Shown here piece after piece: positions 15,412 to 59,596 of a stretch of DNA of 59,596 bases. The notes beneath the pieces were generated by a model. That model was not told where the DNA came from. It saw nothing but the letters and a program-made list of their open reading frames with translations, and did not search any database. Every line of letters begins with the position of its first letter. The stretch's first letter is position 1. Where the stretch lies: IMG/VR virus record IMGVR_UViG_3300047163_000012, positions 1 through 59,596 of that record; one strand, 5' to 3'. The position numbers and the translations under genes are program-made. The stretch comes from a virus.

Positions 15412-16485
15412 TCAATATGAAATCGTGACATTCGGGATTTTCCCGTCGGCAATCGCGCGAACGATCAAGTCGCCGTAAGGAATTTTCGGACCGACGATCG
15501 CGTCGATCGCCTTCGCGGCTGCCGCGTTCTTGGCATCGCGGTTTGCCTTATCTTTCGCGCGGGCTGCGGCAGCGTCGTCGTCGGCTTTTTTCTGCGCCGC
15601 GACGCGCGCTTTTTCGTCAGCGACGGCCTTTGCAGCGGCATCCCTTGCGCGCTGTTCGGCTGCCAGCCTTTCCCGCTCTGCCGTGGCGGCACGCTCTGCG
15701 GCTGCCGTAGCTTCACGGGCAGCGGCTTCCTCGCGTTCCCTTGCCTTTGCAATCTCGGCAGCGGCGACGCGGGCGGCTTCCTCGGCTTCACGCGCGGCCT
15801 TGTCTTCGGCTTCTTTCCGGGCGGCGTCAGCGGCTTCGCGCGCGATCCGGTCTTCGTTTTCCTTTTTGATGCGTTCGGCTTCTGCGGCGCGGAAGGCTTC
15901 CAGTTCGGCACGTTCGGCTTCGCGTTGCGTCTGCGCCGTCAGCTTCGAATTCAGCGATCGCATCGTGTCAGCGAATGCCAGTTCGGCGCGCGCTTGGAAT
16001 TCCTGCCAGTCGCGGCCTTCGGCGCGCCACTGTTCGACGATAGCGATCCGGGCTGCAATGATCGACGCCGACGGTTCTGACGACTCGAATCCGACAGCCG
16101 CAGCAATCTCGGCAAGCTTGGCTTCGTGCGCAGCGACGCGAGTCGCTTCTTTCGCTTCGAAATCGTCAAGCGGCTTGCGCGCCGCCTTCTGCAAATCTTC
16201 AAGACGATCCCAAAGCCGGGCGCGTTCCGCGTCGATCTTTTTCACGCGCTGCTTTGTCTCGGCGACAAGTTCTTTCCCTAACGCTTCGATGCCGGTCTTC
16301 GTCTTCGCGATCTTGAAGGCGAACGATCTGATCGCTTCGCGCCCGGCAGGCGTCGAAACGTCCGGCTTGAACGCATCGACTTCGGCTTGGACGCGGCGGA
16401 TCACCGCATCGACGCCGCCGTCGTCAACGAAGATCGCGACCGGCGTCAGGGATTCAATAGCGACAAGGGCGTTCTGATCAGACAT
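15412..16485 (-). CDS. Long Ala/Glu/Lys coiled-coil protein (TolA-like low complexity)
   Basis: 357 residues. Residues 1-185 are a less biased helical domain (DGGVDAVIRRVQAEVDAFKP; SFAFKIAKTKTGIEALGKEL). Residues 190-320 are a continuous charged heptad region rich in Ala, Glu, Arg and Lys. The last 35 residues form a small conserved-looking end (IPYGDLIVRAIADGKIPNV). Database hits to TolA in such proteins reflect composition only. Similar genes stand next to recT/exonuclease modules in other phages, so a role in recombination or replication is inferred. Confidence 0.7.
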   Translation of the reverse strand: MSDQNALVAIESLTPVAIFVDDGGVDAVIRRVQAEVDAFKPDVSTPAGREAIRSFAFKIAKTKTGIEALGKELVAETKQRVKKIDAERARLWDRLEDLQKAARKPLDDFEAKEATRVAAHEAKLAEIAAAVGFESSEPSASIIAARIAIVEQWRAEGRDWQEFQARAELAFADTMRSLNSKLTAQTQREAERAELEAFRAAEAERIKKENEDRIAREAADAARKEAEDKAAREAEEAARVAAAEIAKAREREEAAAREATAAAERAATAERERLAAEQRARDAAAKAVADEKARVAAQKKADDDAAAARAKDKANRDAKNAAAAKAIDAIVGPKIPYGDLIVRAIADGKIPNVTISY

Positions 16486-19578: not shown

Positions 19579-20130
19579 GTGGCTGTGCTCTGCGGGGAAG
19601 CGATCGGCCTTGATCTAGGCACGTTCACCGGGATTTGCCGTGGCAAACCCGGCGAATTGCCGACGCTGTCGTCGATCGACTTCGGAAAAAAAGACGACGA
19701 ACCGCATGACATCTTCGGTCGCGCAATTATTTTTTTTGCGCAGATGTTTCAGCAAAAGCCGGTGCGGCTCTTTGTCGAACAGCCGATCCCCGAATTCGCG
19801 TTAAAATCGCAAACGCAAGCGCGATCGACCGAACTTAAATATGGACTTCTTGCAATTTCGACGGGCATTGCGCGCGCGTCCGGCGTGTGCGTCGAACGCT
19901 GTCCGATCAGCACGGTTCGGAAGCATTTTCTTGGACAAGGCAATCTGAAATCGTCGATTGCGAAAGAACGTGCGTTTCAGGTTTGCACGACTCTAGGCTG
20001 GAATCCGAATAACTTCGACGAAGCCGACGCGGGCGCGGTGTGGCATTGGGGCTGCCACAAGTACGATCCTGATTCGGTGCAGATCGTCGATCCGCTTTTC
20101 TTGAACCGGGAAGCGATCAAACGAAAATGA
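19579..20130 (+). CDS. RuvC-like Holliday-junction resolvase / RNase H-fold nuclease
   Basis: 183 residues with GTG start; a second GTG two codons later is possible. The RNase H-fold acidic residues are visible: GLDLGTFTGI (first Asp), RLFVEQPI (Glu after a beta strand) and FDEADAGAVWHWG (C-terminal acidic pair). A region ARSTELKYGLLAISTGIARA forms the conserved central helix. Phage RuvC-like proteins cleave branched DNA before packaging or during recombination. It lies between the GapR-like and methyltransferase genes, with a 4-bp overlap downstream. Confidence 0.8.
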   Translation: MAVLCGEAIGLDLGTFTGICRGKPGELPTLSSIDFGKKDDEPHDIFGRAIIFFAQMFQQKPVRLFVEQPIPEFALKSQTQARSTELKYGLLAISTGIARASGVCVERCPISTVRKHFLGQGNLKSSIAKERAFQVCTTLGWNPNNFDEADAGAVWHWGCHKYDPDSVQIVDPLFLNREAIKRK

Positions 20131-20771
20131 AACCGATCGTCCCGAACACTCGGCAGCGCATGGACGGCGTGAAGATGCTTGCGCGTATGGCTGCGGCGTC
20201 GGCTGATCTTGTCTTTTTCGATCCGCAATATCGCGGCGGTCTTGATCGACTCGGTTATGGCAACGAAGGCGAGAGGCAAAAAGGTCGCGCATCATTAAAA
20301 CAGATGGACGATCGGACGATCACCGCGTTCGTCTCGGCGATCGAATTCGTCTTGAAGCCGTCGGCACATCTTATGCTTTGGTGCGACAAGTTCACGATCG
20401 TAGAACGTCGGTGGTGGACGTGGATTTTCCCCGACGATTCGCTTGAACCTGTCGATCTAATCACATGGGACAAATGCCGGATCGGTATGGGTTACAGGTC
20501 GCGCACGCAAACGGAATTCTTGCTTATCTTGCAGAAGCCGCCGAAGCGCGCGAAAGGCATTTGGACGAAGCATGACATCCCGGACAGTTGGCCGGAACAC
20601 TCCGATCGCAGCGGACATCCGCACGCGAAACCGATCCAGCTTCAAACCGAACTAATCAAGGCTTGCACGAAGCGCGGCGATCTTGTCGTCGATCCGGCAG
20701 CCGGTTCTTATTCCGTAATGGAAGCCGCGCACCGCTGCGGGCGTCAGTTCATCGGGTGCGACATTGGTTGA
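20127..20771 (+). CDS. Beta-class DNA methyltransferase (N6-A/N4-C type)
   Basis: 214 residues, ATGA overlap with the preceding gene. The catalytic motif IV is VFFDPQY at about residues 30-36 (DPQY in place of DPPY). SAM-binding motifs come at the C-terminus: HPHAKPIQLQTELIKAC, then DLVVDPAAGSYSVMEAA and FIGCDIG. That catalytic-before-SAM order marks the beta class. The stop overlaps the next gene. It may protect phage DNA from host restriction; the target site cannot be read from the sequence. Confidence 0.9.
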   Translation: MKPIVPNTRQRMDGVKMLARMAAASADLVFFDPQYRGGLDRLGYGNEGERQKGRASLKQMDDRTITAFVSAIEFVLKPSAHLMLWCDKFTIVERRWWTWIFPDDSLEPVDLITWDKCRIGMGYRSRTQTEFLLILQKPPKRAKGIWTKHDIPDSWPEHSDRSGHPHAKPIQLQTELIKACTKRGDLVVDPAAGSYSVMEAAHRCGRQFIGCDIG

Positions 20772-21009
20772 CTTCGTCTTCACGCCTGGCGCGCTGAAAC
20801 GCATCCGCGAACTTGTGAATATCAATTTGCGCGAAGTCGCGATCGCGGCGGACCTTGGCTGCGACGTTCCGACACTGCGCAAGATCGCGGCGAAGCATGG
20901 CTTGCCGCTCAAGAAACCGAACGACGACGACGATCGCGGGTCGGCGCATCGCGATCGAAAATATAACCGTTCACCTTGGGTCGATTTCAAGGGCGGCGGA
21001 AATGAATAA
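20764..21009 (+). CDS. Small HTH DNA-binding protein
   Basis: 81 residues, TTG start within the methyltransferase stop region. The HTH reads LREVAIAADLGCDVPTLRKI, followed by a basic and acidic tail. It overlaps the helicase gene by 8 bp. It could be a DNA-recognition partner of the helicase or a regulator. Confidence 0.6.
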   Translation: MVDFVFTPGALKRIRELVNINLREVAIAADLGCDVPTLRKIAAKHGLPLKKPNDDDDRGSAHRDRKYNRSPWVDFKGGGNE

Positions 21010-22861
21010 TCAGGAATCCATTCTGCGCAGCGTCTTCGGCGATCCCGATCCGCTCACTTCGACGGAAACGATCCTGCGATTCGGAACGGTGTCGCTCAAT
21101 CTCGGCACGGGAAAGCTGTTCGACTATGCCGACGATCGCGAAATGACGTTGGCGGAAGTCGTCGCGCGGCAGAAGTCAATCGGACCGAACGAAGCCGCGA
21201 CCTTCATTGAAGGCTTCGAATTCCCGGGTGACAAACCGATCGAACAGCCGCGCGCCGTGCCGCCGTGGCTGGAAACCGAAAGCTATCTGATTTCGATTCT
21301 TTCGGCGTCACCTGATCTTGTCGATCATGTCGTCGAAGACGTTGTCCCGTCGGATTTTGCGCACGATCTGCACGCGCGCCTTTATCTTTTTTATCAGGAC
21401 GCACTTGTAAACGGATCGGACATAACCGCAGCCGGGATCGCGGAGACTCTCGGCCTTGGCTGGAAAGATGATCTGTTCGGCGGATTCACTGTCGGCGCTT
21501 ATCTCGCGCACCTGATCGCGAACAGTCCGCGCCTTTCGCGCGACGATCTGATCACGGAAGCGATCGCGGCGGCGAAAGAAATCAAACGCCAAGCCGACGA
21601 AGACAACGGGATCGAACCGGAAAAAGAACCCGAACCGTATATTCCGAAGTTCGGCGCGGTGCATTGGAAAGACATGCACTCGGCGAAAGGCACACGATAC
21701 GATTACTGGATCGAAGGCGTGATTCCGGAACGCGAGTCAGTGCTGATCTATGGCGAGAGTCAGTCCGGCAAATCGTTCCTGTCAATGCACATGGCAATGT
21801 GCATCGCGCGCGGCGTGCCGTTTTTCGATCGACAGGTCACGCAAGGTCTTATGATTTATTGCGCCGTCGAAGCTGGCGAAGGTTTCTTTCAACTGCGAAT
21901 GCCGGGATATGAAAAATATCACCAAATCCCGAAGGGCGAACAGATTCCGTTCGTGTGCTTTCCAAAAAAGTTCGATCTGTATAATTCCGACACTGATGTC
22001 ATGGACCTGATTCGAGACATCGAACACGTCAAGAAAATGTATTCCGTTCCGTTCGCCGCGACCGTGATCGACACATACAACAAAGCGACGCCTGGACTCG
22101 ACGAAATCAGCGGCAAGGATGTCAGCAAAGTCGTTCACCGGATCGACATGATCCGATCTGCGACGCAAGGCGGCGTGTGGCTTGTGCATCACAAGAACGC
22201 GGCGGGCAGCGGACCGCGCGGGCACACTTCGCTTTATGCCGGGTTCGAAACTGCGCTTGAAGTCTCTCGCGATAAAGAAACGAAAGACTTCAACAAACGA
22301 GAAATCCGCAGCGTCAAGAACGCAAAACAGCGCGAAGGCGAAGACGGATCGAAATGGGATTTCGTGTTGCAGGGAATTCAGCTTGGCATTGTGAATCAGT
22401 ACGGTCGCCCGGTGTTTTCCGCCGTTGTAGAGGAACCGCAGGAATCCGAAGTGCCGACGCGCAAATTCAAGCCGGGCGCGGGCGGCTATGTGATCAAGTC
22501 TATGCGAACCCGGCTGATCTTCCGCTGTCTGTTAGAGGCGATTCGGCTGCACGGCGAAAAGCCAGCGCCAGGCGTCAAGGTGCCCGCCGGTGTCGGTCTT
22601 GTCGTTCACCGGGACCGCTGGCGTGACGTTCTCATGTCCAAGGCCGAAACTGGTCAGGACGATCCGAAAAAACGCGCGGAGAGCGTCCGCAAGGCGATCC
22701 AGCGGGCATCCGAAGCCTTCGCGGAATGGGGCATCGCTGGCGTCGATTACCCTTGGATTTGGCGGACCGCGAAGTCTGTCGAAGGCTTTCACGACACCGT
22801 TTTCAGCTTCGATCTGTTCGACAAGGTCGAAGACAAGCCGCCGCCTGACGACATCCGTTAA
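21002..22861 (+). CDS. Replicative helicase: DnaB-N domain plus RecA-type (AAA_25/RepA) ATPase
   Basis: 619 residues from the ATG at 21002 (GGCGGCGGAA upstream). Residues about 85-175 resemble the DnaB N-terminal domain (ETESYLISILSASPDLVDHV; LHARLYLFYQDALVNGSDIT). A RecA-fold core follows with Walker A GESQSGKSF at about 250-258, a Walker B-type strand (AATVIDTYN) and a VWLVHHKNAAG sensor-like motif, as in RepA/RSF1010 and AAA_25 proteins. It unwinds the replication fork. The last 120 residues are a separate domain. It is the only clear replication protein, so host polymerase and primase are needed. Confidence 0.88.
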   Translation: MNNQESILRSVFGDPDPLTSTETILRFGTVSLNLGTGKLFDYADDREMTLAEVVARQKSIGPNEAATFIEGFEFPGDKPIEQPRAVPPWLETESYLISILSASPDLVDHVVEDVVPSDFAHDLHARLYLFYQDALVNGSDITAAGIAETLGLGWKDDLFGGFTVGAYLAHLIANSPRLSRDDLITEAIAAAKEIKRQADEDNGIEPEKEPEPYIPKFGAVHWKDMHSAKGTRYDYWIEGVIPERESVLIYGESQSGKSFLSMHMAMCIARGVPFFDRQVTQGLMIYCAVEAGEGFFQLRMPGYEKYHQIPKGEQIPFVCFPKKFDLYNSDTDVMDLIRDIEHVKKMYSVPFAATVIDTYNKATPGLDEISGKDVSKVVHRIDMIRSATQGGVWLVHHKNAAGSGPRGHTSLYAGFETALEVSRDKETKDFNKREIRSVKNAKQREGEDGSKWDFVLQGIQLGIVNQYGRPVFSAVVEEPQESEVPTRKFKPGAGGYVIKSMRTRLIFRCLLEAIRLHGEKPAPGVKVPAGVGLVVHRDRWRDVLMSKAETGQDDPKKRAESVRKAIQRASEAFAEWGIAGVDYPWIWRTAKSVEGFHDTVFSFDLFDKVEDKPPPDDIR

Positions 22862-22871
22862 TTGTGGCATC

Positions 22872-22975
22872 TGTCCCGGCTTTAATGCCGGTTTCCGGGC
22901 ATTTTGTCCCGGCTGTCCCGGCAATTGTGGCGAACCTGTCCCGGTTTGGCGGAAATGTCCCGGCTTCTGTCCCGG
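22872..22975 (+). repeat. TGTCCCGG cluster I (six direct copies)
   Basis: Six exact copies in 104 bp, spaced 33, 9, 23, 19 and 12 bases start to start. The two copies at 22905/22914 form a TGTCCCGGCTGTCCCGG doublet that recurs at 28833 and, inverted and with one change, at 29256-29272. It may be an iteron set, or a binding site for the helicase or the HTH protein encoded just upstream. Confidence 0.75.
22885..22905 (+). terminator. Weak terminator candidate after the helicase gene
   Basis: ATGCCGG / CCGGGCAT with one bulged base and a TTT loop, followed by four T. It lies 24 bp past the helicase stop. Confidence 0.4.
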
Positions 22976-23081: not shown

Positions 23082-23567
23082 TCAGCGATCGTCTAGGACG
23101 CGATCGCGGATCGCCCGGCAGGCGTCGGCGACGGCTTTGTTTCCCGGCGCAAGGTTTCCGAAATTGCGGCGGTCGATCCATTGCAAGACGGTCATTTTCG
23201 ATTCCGTCCCTTCGATCGTATGCCACAAGCGATCGGAAGCTGCGCCGAAGACGCGGCCTTCGATCCAGCCGACGAAGCGCGGGTAACGAAGACGAACGAT
23301 GAAAAGCGATCCGGCTGACGCTGGCGATTCGCCGATCACGAATTCCGGGACGGTATATTCGCCATTAGCGTCCGGCAGCCCTTGCACCATGTATTGAAGC
23401 GCGGTGATCGCCGGTCCTGACAGTTCTCCGTCTTTCATCCGGCGCACTGTCGAAGCGCCGGTCTTCGGCGACAGGTGCAACGCTTCGGCGACAGCCTTGT
23501 CGGTGACTCTCTCGTTTCCGATTCGGCTCAAGTCGCTTTGCATTCTGTTTATGTCGATCGTGTCCAT
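23082..23567 (-). CDS. XRE-like HTH protein, last gene of its operon
   Basis: 161 residues from the ATG at 23567 (TGATG overlap; GCGAGGA upstream). The N-terminus has an HTH-like run (VTDKAVAEALHLSPKTGAST, then VRRMKDGELSGPAITALQYM) and the C-terminal 80 residues form a mixed domain with RLRYPRFVGWIEGRVFG. Similar phage proteins pair an HTH with a small unknown domain. It may regulate or be part of replication control. Confidence 0.6.
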   Translation of the reverse strand: MDTIDINRMQSDLSRIGNERVTDKAVAEALHLSPKTGASTVRRMKDGELSGPAITALQYMVQGLPDANGEYTVPEFVIGESPASAGSLFIVRLRYPRFVGWIEGRVFGAASDRLWHTIEGTESKMTVLQWIDRRNFGNLAPGNKAVADACRAIRDRVLDDR

Positions 23568-26532: not shown

Positions 26533-26944
26533 AGGGAGTCATCTATATAATTCCCAAAAGAAAGCACTCATTCGGGAGCTCGCGCTCACGCCAGCGGTCC
26601 ACCGCGACCTTTTGAATCAGTTCCCAGATGGCATCAAATCTGACGCAACGGCGGTCCATTACCTTGTTTTTGAGGGCGGTTTCAACGAGAGCGCCGCTGG
26701 CGAAGTTGTGACCGAATTTAAGGCAACGGCTGACTATGCAGGACTCTATGGGCCTGATATGATTCTAGACAAATCAGACCCAGCCGCTGATGAAGATGAT
26801 AGTGACGCTCAGGATGAACGTCACGAAGATCGGGGCGGCGGTCGCACCAAAGGGTTGAAGCTGATGGACGGCGAACGCATATTGACGGGATTTATCGCGG
26901 AACCTTCCATCGACCTTTTCCGGTGCGCTTCCAAAACACGATGA
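26525..26944 (+). CDS. IS-associated hypothetical protein, probably 3'-truncated or fused
   Basis: 139 residues from the ATG at 26525. MAKGSHLYNSQKKALIRELA, FEGGFNESAAGEVVTEFKAT and an acidic linker precede GLKLMDGERILTGFI. The expected C-terminal domain ends abruptly near 26890, where the sequence becomes the antisense of the methyltransferase 3' end. The last 17 codons are therefore probably junction sequence. The function is unknown. Confidence 0.55.
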   Translation: MAKGSHLYNSQKKALIRELALTPAVHRDLLNQFPDGIKSDATAVHYLVFEGGFNESAAGEVVTEFKATADYAGLYGPDMILDKSDPAADEDDSDAQDERHEDRGGGRTKGLKLMDGERILTGFIAEPSIDLFRCASKTR

Positions 26945-27635
26945 AATAAGAATGGTTTTTGCGAGCATGAACTTGCTTAACGACTCGGCTCATACCCGGT
27001 TTGTTTCTGCTCATCAGCACAAACATATCTTCAACGCAAAATCCTAGTGTCTGATAGTGATTTATAATTTCAACATGCGTCAGGCGCTGGCGATTGGCAC
27101 AAACCTCATCTTGGCACTTTACGATAAACGTGCCGCCGTCACGCAAAACGCGCCAAGCCTCGGAAGCTGTCTCAAAATATAATTCGAGAACAGCTTCGTG
27201 ATATTTCTTGCCGGTATTCGAGCCTGCGCCATTGTTTCGATAATACTGTTCGTAGTTTTGATGACCAACATGAGCGGAGCCGCCGGGGGTGTGCATGTAC
27301 GGCGGGTCAAATACAACGCTGTCTATGGTGCCATCCTTATACGGCAGCGCGCGACAATCGGTACCGGTCGAAATGTCCGTCTTTTTTAGCTTGTATAAAT
27401 GCTTGTCGATGTTTTTCCAGAACACGCCCTTGCCGTAAGTGATGTCGGCAACGACGCCACCTTTCGGAATATACAAAGCCGCGACTGAAGGGAATATATC
27501 GTTGTTCGTGCCTTGCATGGCAGAGAATACAAGATCATTTGATGGCTTGCCGTTACGAACCCGTCGCTTCGCTTTCGGAGCGAATTTAGGAATTGCGCCC
27601 GTTGTTCGATCCAACATCACGAGGCTATCGCTCAT
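26892..27635 (-). CDS. DNA methyltransferase, imported
   Basis: 247 residues; AGAGAGGGATAG upstream of the ATG. SAM motif I is VADITYGKGVFWKNI (about residues 63-77), then D-C-R-A-L-P-Y, and motif IV is VVFDPPYMHTPGG (about 108-120), giving the SAM-before-catalytic order of gamma-type or related enzymes. GTFIVKCQDEV and a C-terminal YFIVFWKR follow. It modifies adenine N6 or cytosine N4; the target is unknown. It differs strongly from the first methyltransferase in motif order and composition. Its 3' end overlaps the IS-associated gene tail to tail. Confidence 0.85.
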   Translation of the reverse strand: MSDSLVMLDRTTGAIPKFAPKAKRRVRNGKPSNDLVFSAMQGTNNDIFPSVAALYIPKGGVVADITYGKGVFWKNIDKHLYKLKKTDISTGTDCRALPYKDGTIDSVVFDPPYMHTPGGSAHVGHQNYEQYYRNNGAGSNTGKKYHEAVLELYFETASEAWRVLRDGGTFIVKCQDEVCANRQRLTHVEIINHYQTLGFCVEDMFVLMSRNKPGMSRVVKQVHARKNHSYFIVFWKRTGKGRWKVPR

Positions 27636-27785: not shown

Positions 27786-27997
27786 CACCTTCGCCAATCA
27801 AACATCGAAAGTTCGCGTTCGCGCGCGTCCCATGTCACCGGGTTCGCGCCGTTGCGGTAAAGCGATCGGATTTTCATCGTGTAAAAAACGGATGTCATTT
27901 CGATCGCGAACGATTGGCCGAACTTGCCGCGTTCGTTTGGCAGGTGCGCAGCGATCGCGAAGACCGCTGCGCAAGCCATGACGTGACGCCGGATCAC
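27785..27997 (-). CDS. Small protein with hydrophobic N-terminus
   Basis: 70 residues from a GTG in a GTGA overlap with the lipoprotein stop; an ATG at 27979 is the alternative. HVMACAAVFAIAAHLP may be a weak signal or anchor segment. The rest, MKIRSLYRNGANPVTWDARE, is polar. The function is unknown. Confidence 0.5.
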   Translation of the reverse strand: MIRRHVMACAAVFAIAAHLPNERGKFGQSFAIEMTSVFYTMKIRSLYRNGANPVTWDARERELSMFDWRR

Positions 27998-28638
27998 TCT
28001 TTGTCGTCCGAAGCGTGCGGCAGCGGATCGGACCGCTTCGACGGCCATACGCTGTCGGCAGCCGGATCGGTTTCGCGACGCTTCATGATCGACTTGCGGA
28101 AGCGATCGGCGATGCCCGCCTTTTCGTCCGGCGCTGGCGTCGGTGCAGGTGCGGCGGCTTCCGGCGCGGGTTCGGGCGCTGGCACGATCGGCGGGACGGC
28201 AGGTCCGGAGCGATTGTATTCCGGCGCTGGCGTCACTGGCTGCGACACCAACGGCTGCGGCGTGGCGTCGTCCTGCGGCGCGGAATCCCTGCCCCAATGG
28301 CTACGCCAACGCGACGGCGAAAGCGGTGCGGCGGAAGGCGCGACACTTGCGGGCGGCGTCACTTTTTGCGTGCCGATTTGCGGTGGTTTTCGGTGCGGTT
28401 TCGACGCGACCGGCCTGATCGGGCGACGCACCGGGCGAACCGTGGCCGGGACAGCCACCGGGACAGGATCGGCGGCAGGTCGAAGCTTGTCGGCCAGCCC
28501 GAACGGATCGGGATTGAAACCGGCGAACGGGCTGTCTAGACCGGGCGTGCCGCACGCGGTCAGAAGCGTCAGAATACTGACGGCGGCTGACGCTGACACG
28601 ACGCGCCGGGCGGTCGGAGTAATGACGAAAAAGGACAT
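27994..28638 (-). CDS. Proline-rich lipoprotein
   Basis: 214 residues from the ATG at 28638 (GAAGG upstream). The signal peptide (RRVVSASAAVSILTLLTAC) ends in a clear lipobox L-T-A-C at residue 29. Residues 45-170 are rich in Pro, Ala and Val (PVPVAVPATVRPVRRPIRPV; PAPEPAPEAAAPAPTPAPD), an extended periplasm-spanning type of sequence; the C-terminus is charged. Possible roles are outer-membrane disruption (o-spanin-like, though far longer than usual) or superinfection exclusion. It is transcribed away from the putative origin. Confidence 0.7.
   Translation of the reverse strand: MSFFVITPTARRVVSASAAVSILTLLTACGTPGLDSPFAGFNPDPFGLADKLRPAADPVPVAVPATVRPVRRPIRPVASKPHRKPPQIGTQKVTPPASVAPSAAPLSPSRWRSHWGRDSAPQDDATPQPLVSQPVTPAPEYNRSGPAVPPIVPAPEPAPEAAAPAPTPAPDEKAGIADRFRKSIMKRRETDPAADSVWPSKRSDPLPHASDDKE
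28446..28465 (-). repeat. CCGGGACA pair inside the lipoprotein gene
   Basis: Two inverted copies (28446-28453, 28458-28465) of the TGTCCCGG motif, 12 bases apart. They lie in the Pro/Val/Ala codons and may be coincidental to the coding. Confidence 0.45.
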
Positions 28639-28685
28639 GGAAAGCCTTCTAGGCTGGCGATTGGCGCGCTTGGGCGCGCCTACGC

Positions 28686-28718
28686 GGGAAAGGGTATGGC
28701 ACGCCCGGTCCCTTTCCC
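28686..28718. promoter_or_regulatory. 9-bp inverted repeat over a leftward promoter-like sequence
   Basis: GGGAAAGGG (28686-28694) / CCCTTTCCC (28710-28718), perfect, 15-base spacer. Reading leftward, TTGGGA, 17 bp, ATACCC gives a weak promoter candidate for the lipoprotein gene, overlapped by the repeat. It resembles the rightward early candidate at 18251-18279 (TTGCAA, 17 bp, ATACCT). Confidence 0.4.
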
Positions 28719-28832
28719 AAGACGCCGGACGTGCCACCGTTTGTCGATCCCGCGACCCTGTACCGGGACCGGCGCGGAACCTGCCGCAGATCGCCCGGCC
28801 ATGTCAATCCCGGCCCGAATTATTTCGGACGA

Positions 28833-28883
28833 TGTCCCGGCTGTCCCGCCGAAAATGTCCGGATGTCCCGGCAAATGTCCCGC
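28833..28883 (+). repeat. TGTCCCGG cluster II (four direct copies)
   Basis: Copies start at 28833, 28842, 28864 and 28876 (two end in GC instead of GG), with a TGTCCGGA variant at 28856. The 9-base doublet and the 22- and 12-base steps resemble the spacing in cluster I. Confidence 0.7.
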
Positions 28884-28916
28884 TTTCGGTGTCAAGACAT
28901 ATCGTCGCGATCCGGG

Positions 28917-28925
28917 TTATCCACA
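28917..28925 (+). other. DnaA box
   Basis: TTATCCACA, identical to the consensus high-affinity DnaA site. It is followed five bases later by CCGGGACG (28930-28937), an inverted variant of the cluster motif, and then by the AT-richer stretch. Confidence 0.7.
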
Positions 28926-29219
28926 GGCACCGGGACGATCTTTGTTCGCCTTTGAAATCAATGCCTTAATTCCTCACGCGGATTTGATAACGAGAACGTG
29001 ACTAGGACGCCGGACTTTTTTCGTCCAATTCTACACACGCGCGCGGCCCCCGGCGGTGCAAGTTGAGATACCGGCGCGGCCCGTCAGGGCGACGCGACGG
29101 GCGGATCGGACAGCGAGTGCTGAACATGAAGATCAGTTCTGGATTTCGCGGCAATCTGGCTCGTAGCCTTCACTGGCAAGCGAACTTTTTCAAAATGGCG
29201 CGGTGCGCCTGAATTCAGT

Positions 29220-29247
29220 CCCGGCCTTCGAAAGAGGCCGGGTTTTT
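29220..29247 (+). terminator. Rho-independent terminator with no gene upstream
   Basis: Stem CCCGGCC / GGCCGGG (29220-29226, 29236-29242) with a 9-base loop, followed by five T. Nothing is encoded on the plus strand for more than 1.5 kb upstream. It must therefore end a non-coding transcript or act on a leader RNA reading into the gene at 29291. Confidence 0.85.
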
Positions 29248-29255
29248 CGTGGCGA

Positions 29256-29286
29256 CCGGGACGGCCGGGACAAAAAGGGCGGGACA
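29256..29286 (-). repeat. CCGGGACA cluster III (three inverted copies)
   Basis: CCGGGACG (29256), CCGGGACA (29265) and GCGGGACA (29279), spaced 9 and 14 bases. The orientation is opposite to cluster II, so the two clusters face each other across the DnaA box. The last copy ends 4 bases before the ATG at 29291. Confidence 0.65.
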
Positions 29287-29290
29287 GAAA

Positions 29291-29677
29291 ATGCGAATGA
29301 CGGCGAACATTTCGGACGGCCATATCACGATCGACGGGCTGACGTTGCACGTCGCAGCCGCAGACTTTCCGAAGCTGCAAAACATTAACGGAAAGCCTGC
29401 CGACGGCGTGCAAGCGATCGTATGGGACGGCGACGGCCTTTTCGGTCATATCCAAGGCGGCGGCGGTGAACCGTTCCGCGACCCTGCGGTCGTCCTGCCG
29501 TTCGTCAATTCGTGGCTGGTCACGCTCGACGCGAAGATCAGCGAACTGTCGAAAATCAGCGGCGGCATGGGTGCGAAAAAGGCTGCGGAAGCTGCGGCCT
29601 TCGTCAAGCTTCAGGCCGATCTGAAAGCGAACGAAGCCGCGCTTTCGAAAGCTGCGAAAGCGGATGCGCCAGGGTGA
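29291..29677 (+). CDS. Unknown protein, first gene of the rightward middle/late operon
   Basis: 128 residues from the ATG at 29291. N-terminal beta part MTANISDGHITIDGLTLHVA, WDGDGLFGHIQGGGG, then an Ala/Lys coiled helix at the C-terminus. The motif repeats overlap its leader. The function is unknown. Confidence 0.6.
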   Translation: MRMTANISDGHITIDGLTLHVAAADFPKLQNINGKPADGVQAIVWDGDGLFGHIQGGGGEPFRDPAVVLPFVNSWLVTLDAKISELSKISGGMGAKKAAEAAAFVKLQADLKANEAALSKAAKADAPG

Positions 29678-59129: not shown

Positions 59130-59596
59130 ATGGGCCGCATTTATTCCGTTCCGATGAAAGCTGTCAGCGCGACGCTGGCACAGGATTTGTGGAACATCAT
59201 CGCGGGTGCCAACATGGCGCTTGCAATCCACAGCATCACACTCGGACAGAAAAACCTTACCGCTGTCGAAATGTGGAGTCTGACGCTTCGCCGCTTTCCC
59301 GTGACGGTGACGAACGGCACGGGCGGCACAGCGCCGACGCCAGCGAAGCATAACTTCAACGATGCAGCCGCGACATTCACGGCAAGAATGAACGATATGA
59401 CGACGCGCGCATCGACAACCGGCACGGCTGTCGATCTTCCATGCGACGCCATGAACGTCCTAAATGGCTTTTTCTTTCTGCCGCCGCCGGAAGACAGAAT
59501 CATCATCGCGCCGAATCAGAACTTGATCGTCGGACTTGAGACGCCGCCGTCGGCTGCCGCGCTTCTTTCCGGATCAATTGTCGTCGAAGAACTTTT
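59130..59596 (+). CDS. 5' part of structural protein split by the contig ends
   Basis: ATG at 59130 opens MGRIYSVPMKAVSATLAQDL and runs to the last base without a stop; the frame resumes at base 128 and ends at 131, giving 156 residues. It has FPVTVTNGTGGTAPTPAKHN and NFNDAAATFTARMNDMTTRA. The family looks like small fibre-tip or decoration proteins encoded next to fibres. The function is not known. Confidence 0.85.
   Translation, partial: MGRIYSVPMKAVSATLAQDLWNIIAGANMALAIHSITLGQKNLTAVEMWSLTLRRFPVTVTNGTGGTAPTPAKHNFNDAAATFTARMNDMTTRASTTGTAVDLPCDAMNVLNGFFFLPPPEDRIIIAPNQNLIVGLETPPSAAALLSGSIVVEEL
59470..59596. repeat. 127-bp terminal direct repeat, right copy
   Basis: Identical to 1-127; see the left copy. 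It shows that the contig closes on itself. Confidence 0.95.

Follow-up and report, generated by a model that had tools for sequence, protein, structure and literature searches.

A probable two-site, iteron-marked replication origin associated with a RepA-type helicase gene in a tailed-phage genome

We analysed the whole of virus record IMGVR_UViG_3300047163_000012, a stretch of 59,596 bases that looks complete and is referred to here as the window. Bases 1-128 of the window are repeated at 59469-59596 (an exact match was checked over the first 100 bases; the repeat length would be 128 bases), and this recurrence of the record start at the record end suggests a complete genome, circularly assembled or terminally repeated. 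The window carries a tailed-phage gene set that includes a terminase, RecT and RecE-like recombination proteins, a DnaQ-like exonuclease, a RuvC-like resolvase and a helicase (Table 1). Directly behind the helicase gene, starting 11 bases past its stop codon, lies the largest repeat cluster of the window, which a previous sequence-only reading of this DNA had overlooked. We call this cluster site A. Two N6/N4-type DNA methyltransferase genes flank it, one on each side (20127-20771 and 26892-27635), and upstream of the helicase gene a protein encoded at 18998-19570 matches the DNA-binding domain of GapR at a borderline level (E 8e-5).

The second repeat-bearing region, site B, is the one in which the sequence-only reading had placed a plasmid-like theta origin. 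As that reading described, it is a gene-free stretch of about 650 bp, and it runs between the ATG of a lipoprotein-like gene at 28638 (− strand) and the ATG of the next gene at 29291 (+ strand); the only open reading frame inside it has 28 codons (29126-29212). This frame, MKISSGFRGNLARSLHWQANFFKMARCA, is followed directly by a terminator-like hairpin, so that the pair (29126-29242) may specify a small peptide, a leader or a short RNA, though the hairpin itself is weak because one such structure is also expected by chance (1 found versus 0.9 in shuffles). The four direct motifs of the earlier description are TGTCCCG copies that start at 28833, 28842, 28864 and 28876, with a TGTCCGG at 28856 between them, and the three inverted copies are found at 29256-29263 (CCGGGACG), 29265-29272 and 29279-29286. 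The consensus DnaA box, TTATCCACA, and the inverted variant that begins five bases beyond it are also present, and the box is the only exact one in the window (0.08 expected). The AT-richer stretch is real and modest, with an AT content of 0.47-0.57 over about 28920-29040 (40-bp steps) and of 0.50-0.57 over 28960-29040, versus about 0.43 genome-wide. Two further inverted iterons, within the lipoprotein coding sequence, had been missed. Searches with the site B region found no DNA relatives among 50,697 phage records and no convincing Rfam match to a known RNA element, and the protein encoded at 29291-29677, used as bait, found no relatives.

Table 1. Positions of the repeat sites, the helicase gene and neighbouring features in the window.
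Feature	Position	Strand	Basis
RepA-type hexameric helicase, 619 aa; AAA_25, weak DnaB N-terminal match; proposed initiator	21002..22861	+	domain search, model
Predicted C-terminal winged-helix domain of the helicase, residues 496-592; proposed iteron-binding domain	22487..22777	+	predicted structure
Site A: six direct TGTCCCGG iterons, from helicase stop (22861) to convergent HTH gene (ends 23082)	22872..22975	+	motif search
HTH protein gene flanking site A	23082..23567	-	domain search
Lipoprotein-like gene (lipobox LTAC), left flank of site B; no Pfam match	27994..28638	-	ORF and Pfam search
Two inverted TGTCCCGG in the lipoprotein CDS, step 12	28446..28465	-	motif search
Site B: gene-free, between leftward and rightward genes; candidate origin proper	28639..29290	.	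ORF map; like position in three relatives
Site B left array, direct: TGTCCCGG, TGTCCCGC, TGTCCGGA, TGTCCCGG, TGTCCCGC; steps 9, 14, 8, 12	28833..28883	+	motif search
Perfect DnaA box TTATCCACA; window only, unconserved	28917..28925	+	motif search
Single inverted iteron variant CCGGGACG (listed as CGTCCCGG)	28931..28938	-	sequence
AT-richer stretch separating the two arrays; candidate unwinding region	28940..29040	.	40-bp AT steps
Intrinsic-terminator-like hairpin within site B	29220..29242	+	1 found vs 0.9 expected in shuffles
Site B right array: three inverted copies, one variant and two exact TGTCCCG	29256..29286	-	motif search

The repeats are not a product of chance or base composition, both of which are ruled out by shuffle counts. 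TGTCCCG/CGGGACA occurs 22 times in the window, whereas dinucleotide shuffles have 8.3 on average and 18 at most, and its clustering reaches six copies in 110 bp versus at most three in 300 dinucleotide shuffles. For the longer TGTCCCGS the counts are 16 observed and 4.3 expected, a number reached in none of 100 shuffles. The motif is therefore not equally frequent elsewhere, the outcome that would have spoken against the earlier proposal, and the window has what marks an iteron-type origin, short repeats beyond chance near a replication gene. A hairpin-type origin was considered and rejected, as site A folds no better than shuffles (z −0.58) and site B only slightly better (z −1.73). The other genome-wide check, GC skew, gave a different result: the cumulative minimum lies at 16428 (16.4 kb) and not at 28.9 kb. 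By the test that the earlier reading had set, this counts against an origin at 28.9 kb, but the skew spans just −178 to +196 bases and is weak.

The helicase motor belongs to AAA_25 (Pfam, E 5e-22), and its modelled core is structurally closest to RSF1010 RepA (Z 23.4, rmsd 2.5 over 235 residues), so that it can be placed by its predicted RecA fold in the RepA-type, RSF1010-like class. A Pfam search recognised no primase domain in the protein. Modelled alone, residues 496-592 gave a confident small domain (pLDDT 91.4) with a long helix and two strands at its end. Winged helices (those of E2F-DP and ORC, CRP and MukE) make up most of the structures that this model matches, each match being weak alone (Foldseek E 0.05 or worse; Z about 8), and we regard the domain as a predicted winged helix at the level of fold. 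A profile of the domain found nothing meaningful among PDB sequences. P4 alpha is absent among the fold matches listed, though the two proteins may be related. The long helix (555-576) carries R563, K564, Q567 and R568. In an alignment of 50 helicases, positions 563 and 567 ranked second and third among the tested columns for association with TGTCCCG arrays, and all 38 TGTCCCG helicases have K or R at 563. This association is a hint only, because the test leaves relatedness among the helicases in place and because later members break the rule. A one-to-one code from helix to iteron was rejected on account of three such members: G005 (N563 with TGTCCC), L348 (KKAVQR with TGTCTC) and L352 (KKAISR with TGTCAC).

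We searched for the gene that accompanies such arrays in other genomes. Scanning viral contigs for TGTCCCGGCTGTCCCG yielded 90 loci, of which about twenty hold true clusters and many are no more than single chance pairs. In bacterial and archaeal genome contigs, the arrangement CGGGACA/TGTCCCG/TGTCCCG was found at 77 loci from many phyla, most with dense arrays. Blind clustering of every protein encoded within 2.5 kb of the arrays in viral and bacterial DNA, with none preselected, revealed one large family, comprising 58 genes at 55 loci, which is homologous to the window helicase and is the only widely shared gene. The array lies on the 3' side of the helicase gene in 53 of these 58 cases, overlaps it in the other five and is never found on the 5' side. 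On closer look more loci also have the helicase, and several others end at a contig edge. A minority of array loci have a different neighbour. A CGGGACA array of Halorhodospira (L240, 1155-1348) lies at the 3' end of an unrelated DUF927 helicase gene with a Cch HTH_56 domain, the same repeat with a different motor, and CGGGACA arrays of Clostridia (L213, 5263-5510; L189, 1042-1289) adjoin the gene of an HTH_36 protein, with the RepA-type helicase absent from the stretch examined. At the helicase 3' end of seven loci (L087, L072, L035, L049, L032, L254 and L255) we also observed a recurring palindrome in which a short hairpin core such as CCCCTATAGGGG separates two iterons from two inverted ones; in that form the palindrome is absent from the window.

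The association also appears in the reverse direction. Relatives fetched by alignments of the helicase sequence alone are mostly without TGTCCCG, and many have a dense array of another 7-mer in a like position, among them TGTCCGG, TGTCACG, TGTAGAC, TTTGTCC, TGTCTCC, TGTGATC and TGGTATA. Of 64 usable representatives, 54 have the densest repeated 7-mer of their locus at the 3' end of the helicase gene (tied in 3, elsewhere in 7), a figure that is inflated because most members of the pool were found through the motif. Examples of arrays at the helicase 3' end are those of Rhizobium phage 16-3 (helicase p101; TGTCACG, 15 copies), Rhizobium phage RHph_X2_25 (16 copies), Roseobacter phage CRP-831 (GTATAAA, 10 copies), a Xanthobacter plasmid (CGGGACA, 7 copies) and a Methylobacterium phage-plasmid (CGCAACA, 8 copies); the paired sites of phages 16-3 and RHph_X2_25 were found nowhere else in either record. 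No array was found near the helicase in Microcystis phage Mae-JY30, Caulobacter phage GB2A or phage ctyzp037. Relatives chosen by their terminase give the complementary picture. Fifteen of 16 long records are without the helicase, and TGTCCCG pairs are absent from all 15; the sole helicase carrier, G005, has an array of TGTCCC in which the last base varies. We propose that the array behind the helicase gene is ancestral and usually the only array of this type of replicon.

A search with an alignment of the window's helicase subfamily yielded viruses with long flanks, in which distances could be counted from the helicase stop codon. In the window itself, A lies at +14 to +110 and B at +5975 to +6425, and both sites recur in three further viruses of the subfamily, with B at +6.0 to +7.4 kb. 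G005 (140.6 kb; its terminase and the window's share 57% identity) has A at +4 to +133 and B at about +7.1 to +7.4 kb, and G023 (69.4 kb) has A at +8 to +136 and B at about +6.4 to +6.7 kb, both with TGTCCC. In G022 (71.7 kb), A is at +18 to +162 and B at about +6.0 to +6.3 kb, and every site reads TGTCAC. That two sites so far apart have switched iterons together would be hard to explain unless a single protein reads both. Four other records, those with the closest helicases (G001 and G019-G021; 40% identical), have no array directly behind the gene and have TGTCCC arrays elsewhere, including opposed pairs about 0.5-0.8 kb apart. Arrays at other places were also seen: G022 (L345) has a third TGTCAC array at −8.3 kb, upstream of the helicase stop, and L352 has ten direct TGTCCG in 240 bases at −9.5 to −9.3 kb, possibly a separate array.

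We consider it likely, on the comparison of sequences, that sites A and B form a bipartite, iteron-marked origin bound by the phage's own RepA-type helicase. The region that the sequence-only reading took for the whole origin is very probably half of a two-part phage replication origin, and it is the other site, the array behind the helicase gene, that most relatives keep. What stands of the plasmid-like theta origin is its iteron type, which the comparison strongly supports; its single site, its DnaA component and its expected skew are unsupported. From the arrays and the models we infer the following course of initiation. Both sites would serve as binding sites of the RecA-fold, SF4-like helicase, whose C-terminal winged helix would read 6-8-bp iterons of the form TGTCCC(G). 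Helicase rings would assemble over the AT-richer stretch of B between the opposed arrays, loading without a separate initiator, and the strands would open at B before the host polymerase enters. B, where arrays lie on both sides of the AT-richer stretch, is the more likely place of unwinding. A would be a helper or control site in cis that acts together with B through bridging, enhancement or control, comparable with crr, which accompanies ori in P4. Several findings count against a helicase-bound bipartite origin: the four records without an array behind the gene, the array-less relatives, the loose helix code, the weak winged-helix matches and the skew.

Other functions of the arrays have to be weighed. 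Site B could be an operator at which the HTH regulator encoded beside site A binds TGTCCCG and controls divergent promoters at 28.6-29.3 kb. The site does lie between divergent genes, and a promoter-like sequence on the − strand (28847-28819) overlaps its iterons. Further, G005 resembles the window in having a leftward block with an HTH protein between A and B, and the two HTH proteins are related (25% identity over 88 residues, pairwise E 2e-5). However, site A is between convergent genes and the arrays of most relatives are at gene 3' ends, where operators are not expected; each array has 5-19 sites; and the only widely shared gene is that of the helicase and not of the HTH protein. We therefore judge an operator unlikely as the main function, and autoregulation may take place at the arrays alongside replication. 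Still less likely is a DnaA-dependent plasmid-like theta origin at 28.9 kb, where host DnaA would open B with the help of an iteron-binding protein. The perfect DnaA box that adjoins the iterons and the AT-richer stretch had suggested such an origin, but of 66 helicase-linked arrays a single one has a DnaA box nearby, and the sites B of the relatives read showed none, so that dependence on DnaA is unsupported.

Two further readings seem to us very improbable, and equally so. Partition (parS-like) or packaging (pac) sites would fit with the role of other iteron arrays as centromeres and with the position of site B, which is on the same side of the genome as the terminase. Against them, the arrays track the helicase instead of the terminase, and they also appear on a plasmid and beside helicase genes of bacterial genome contigs. 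The repeats might otherwise be read by a primase, as priming or single-strand signals, and not by the helicase as double-strand sites. This would agree with the Prim-Pol or Toprim primases fused to the helicase in several relatives and with the hairpins between inverted copies in many arrays, but not with an array position that is unchanged whether Prim-Pol, Toprim or neither is recognised on the helicase, or with the folding of the direct repeats of A.

Beyond the window, we lean, by a small margin of confidence, towards a replicon type widespread in phages, plasmids and prophage-like elements of several bacterial phyla, whose ring helicase (RecA fold, RepA/SF4) would carry its own winged-helix origin reader and initiate, with no separate initiator or loader, at fast co-evolving 6-8-bp iterons; the window subfamily would be its bipartite form, with sites about 6-7 kb apart whose iterons change together. 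To our knowledge, the usual account of RecA-fold ring helicases is that they depend on another protein for finding the origin and loading onto it, RSF1010 RepA on RepC and DnaB on DnaA and DnaC. A literature search, with most subscription journals outside its reach, found neither a description of these iterons nor one of a RepA-type helicase that carries its own origin reader. A repeat-marked origin read by the helicase itself thus does not seem to have been described for RepA-type helicases, though silence of the literature is weak evidence of novelty. A fused origin-reading domain together with naturally varied pairs of iteron and helix would make self-loading by RecA-fold ring helicases directly testable. 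Such a domain would also permit origin prediction in many phages, including Rhizobium phage 16-3, and provide a natural series in which to follow the joint change of an initiator and of its sites at two distant places of one genome.

The closest known system by motor is plasmid RSF1010 (RepA/RepC/oriV), whose helicase has the same fold as that of the window; there a separate RepC reads the iterons, whereas in the window the reading domain is apparently fused to the helicase. Phage P4, by contrast, resembles the window in layout, as it needs two cis sites, one beside the alpha gene, with crr accompanying ori. Its alpha protein is an SF3 helicase with a Toprim primase, unlike the window helicase with no recognised primase domain, and the letters of its iterons differ from those of the window. 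P4 alpha nevertheless combines in one protein a helicase and a C-terminal winged helix that binds short repeats (PMC4234260). The replication proteins of pRN1 and phage BIP-1 likewise have a C-terminal winged helix and an origin directly 3' of the replication gene (PMC4234260), but their SF3 motor with a Prim-Pol domain and a large stem-loop in place of iterons are unlike the window. The self-loading initiator helicases SaPI Rep and SCCmec Cch2 use a C-terminal domain to read short iterons directly downstream of their own gene (PMC7581432). The window is similar in its array directly 3' of the helicase gene (site A begins at 22872, the gene ends at 22861) and in its proposed C-terminal reader, and it differs in its second site 6-7 kb away and in its motor, which is AAA_25/RepA (RecA fold) versus D5/Primase_Cterm in Cch2, DUF927 in Cch and, for the SaPI Rep and P4 alpha type as a whole, SF3/D5 or DUF927. 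Given this motor of another family, the window system appears to work like SaPI Rep, P4 alpha and the pRN1 and BIP-1 proteins without being a member of their group.
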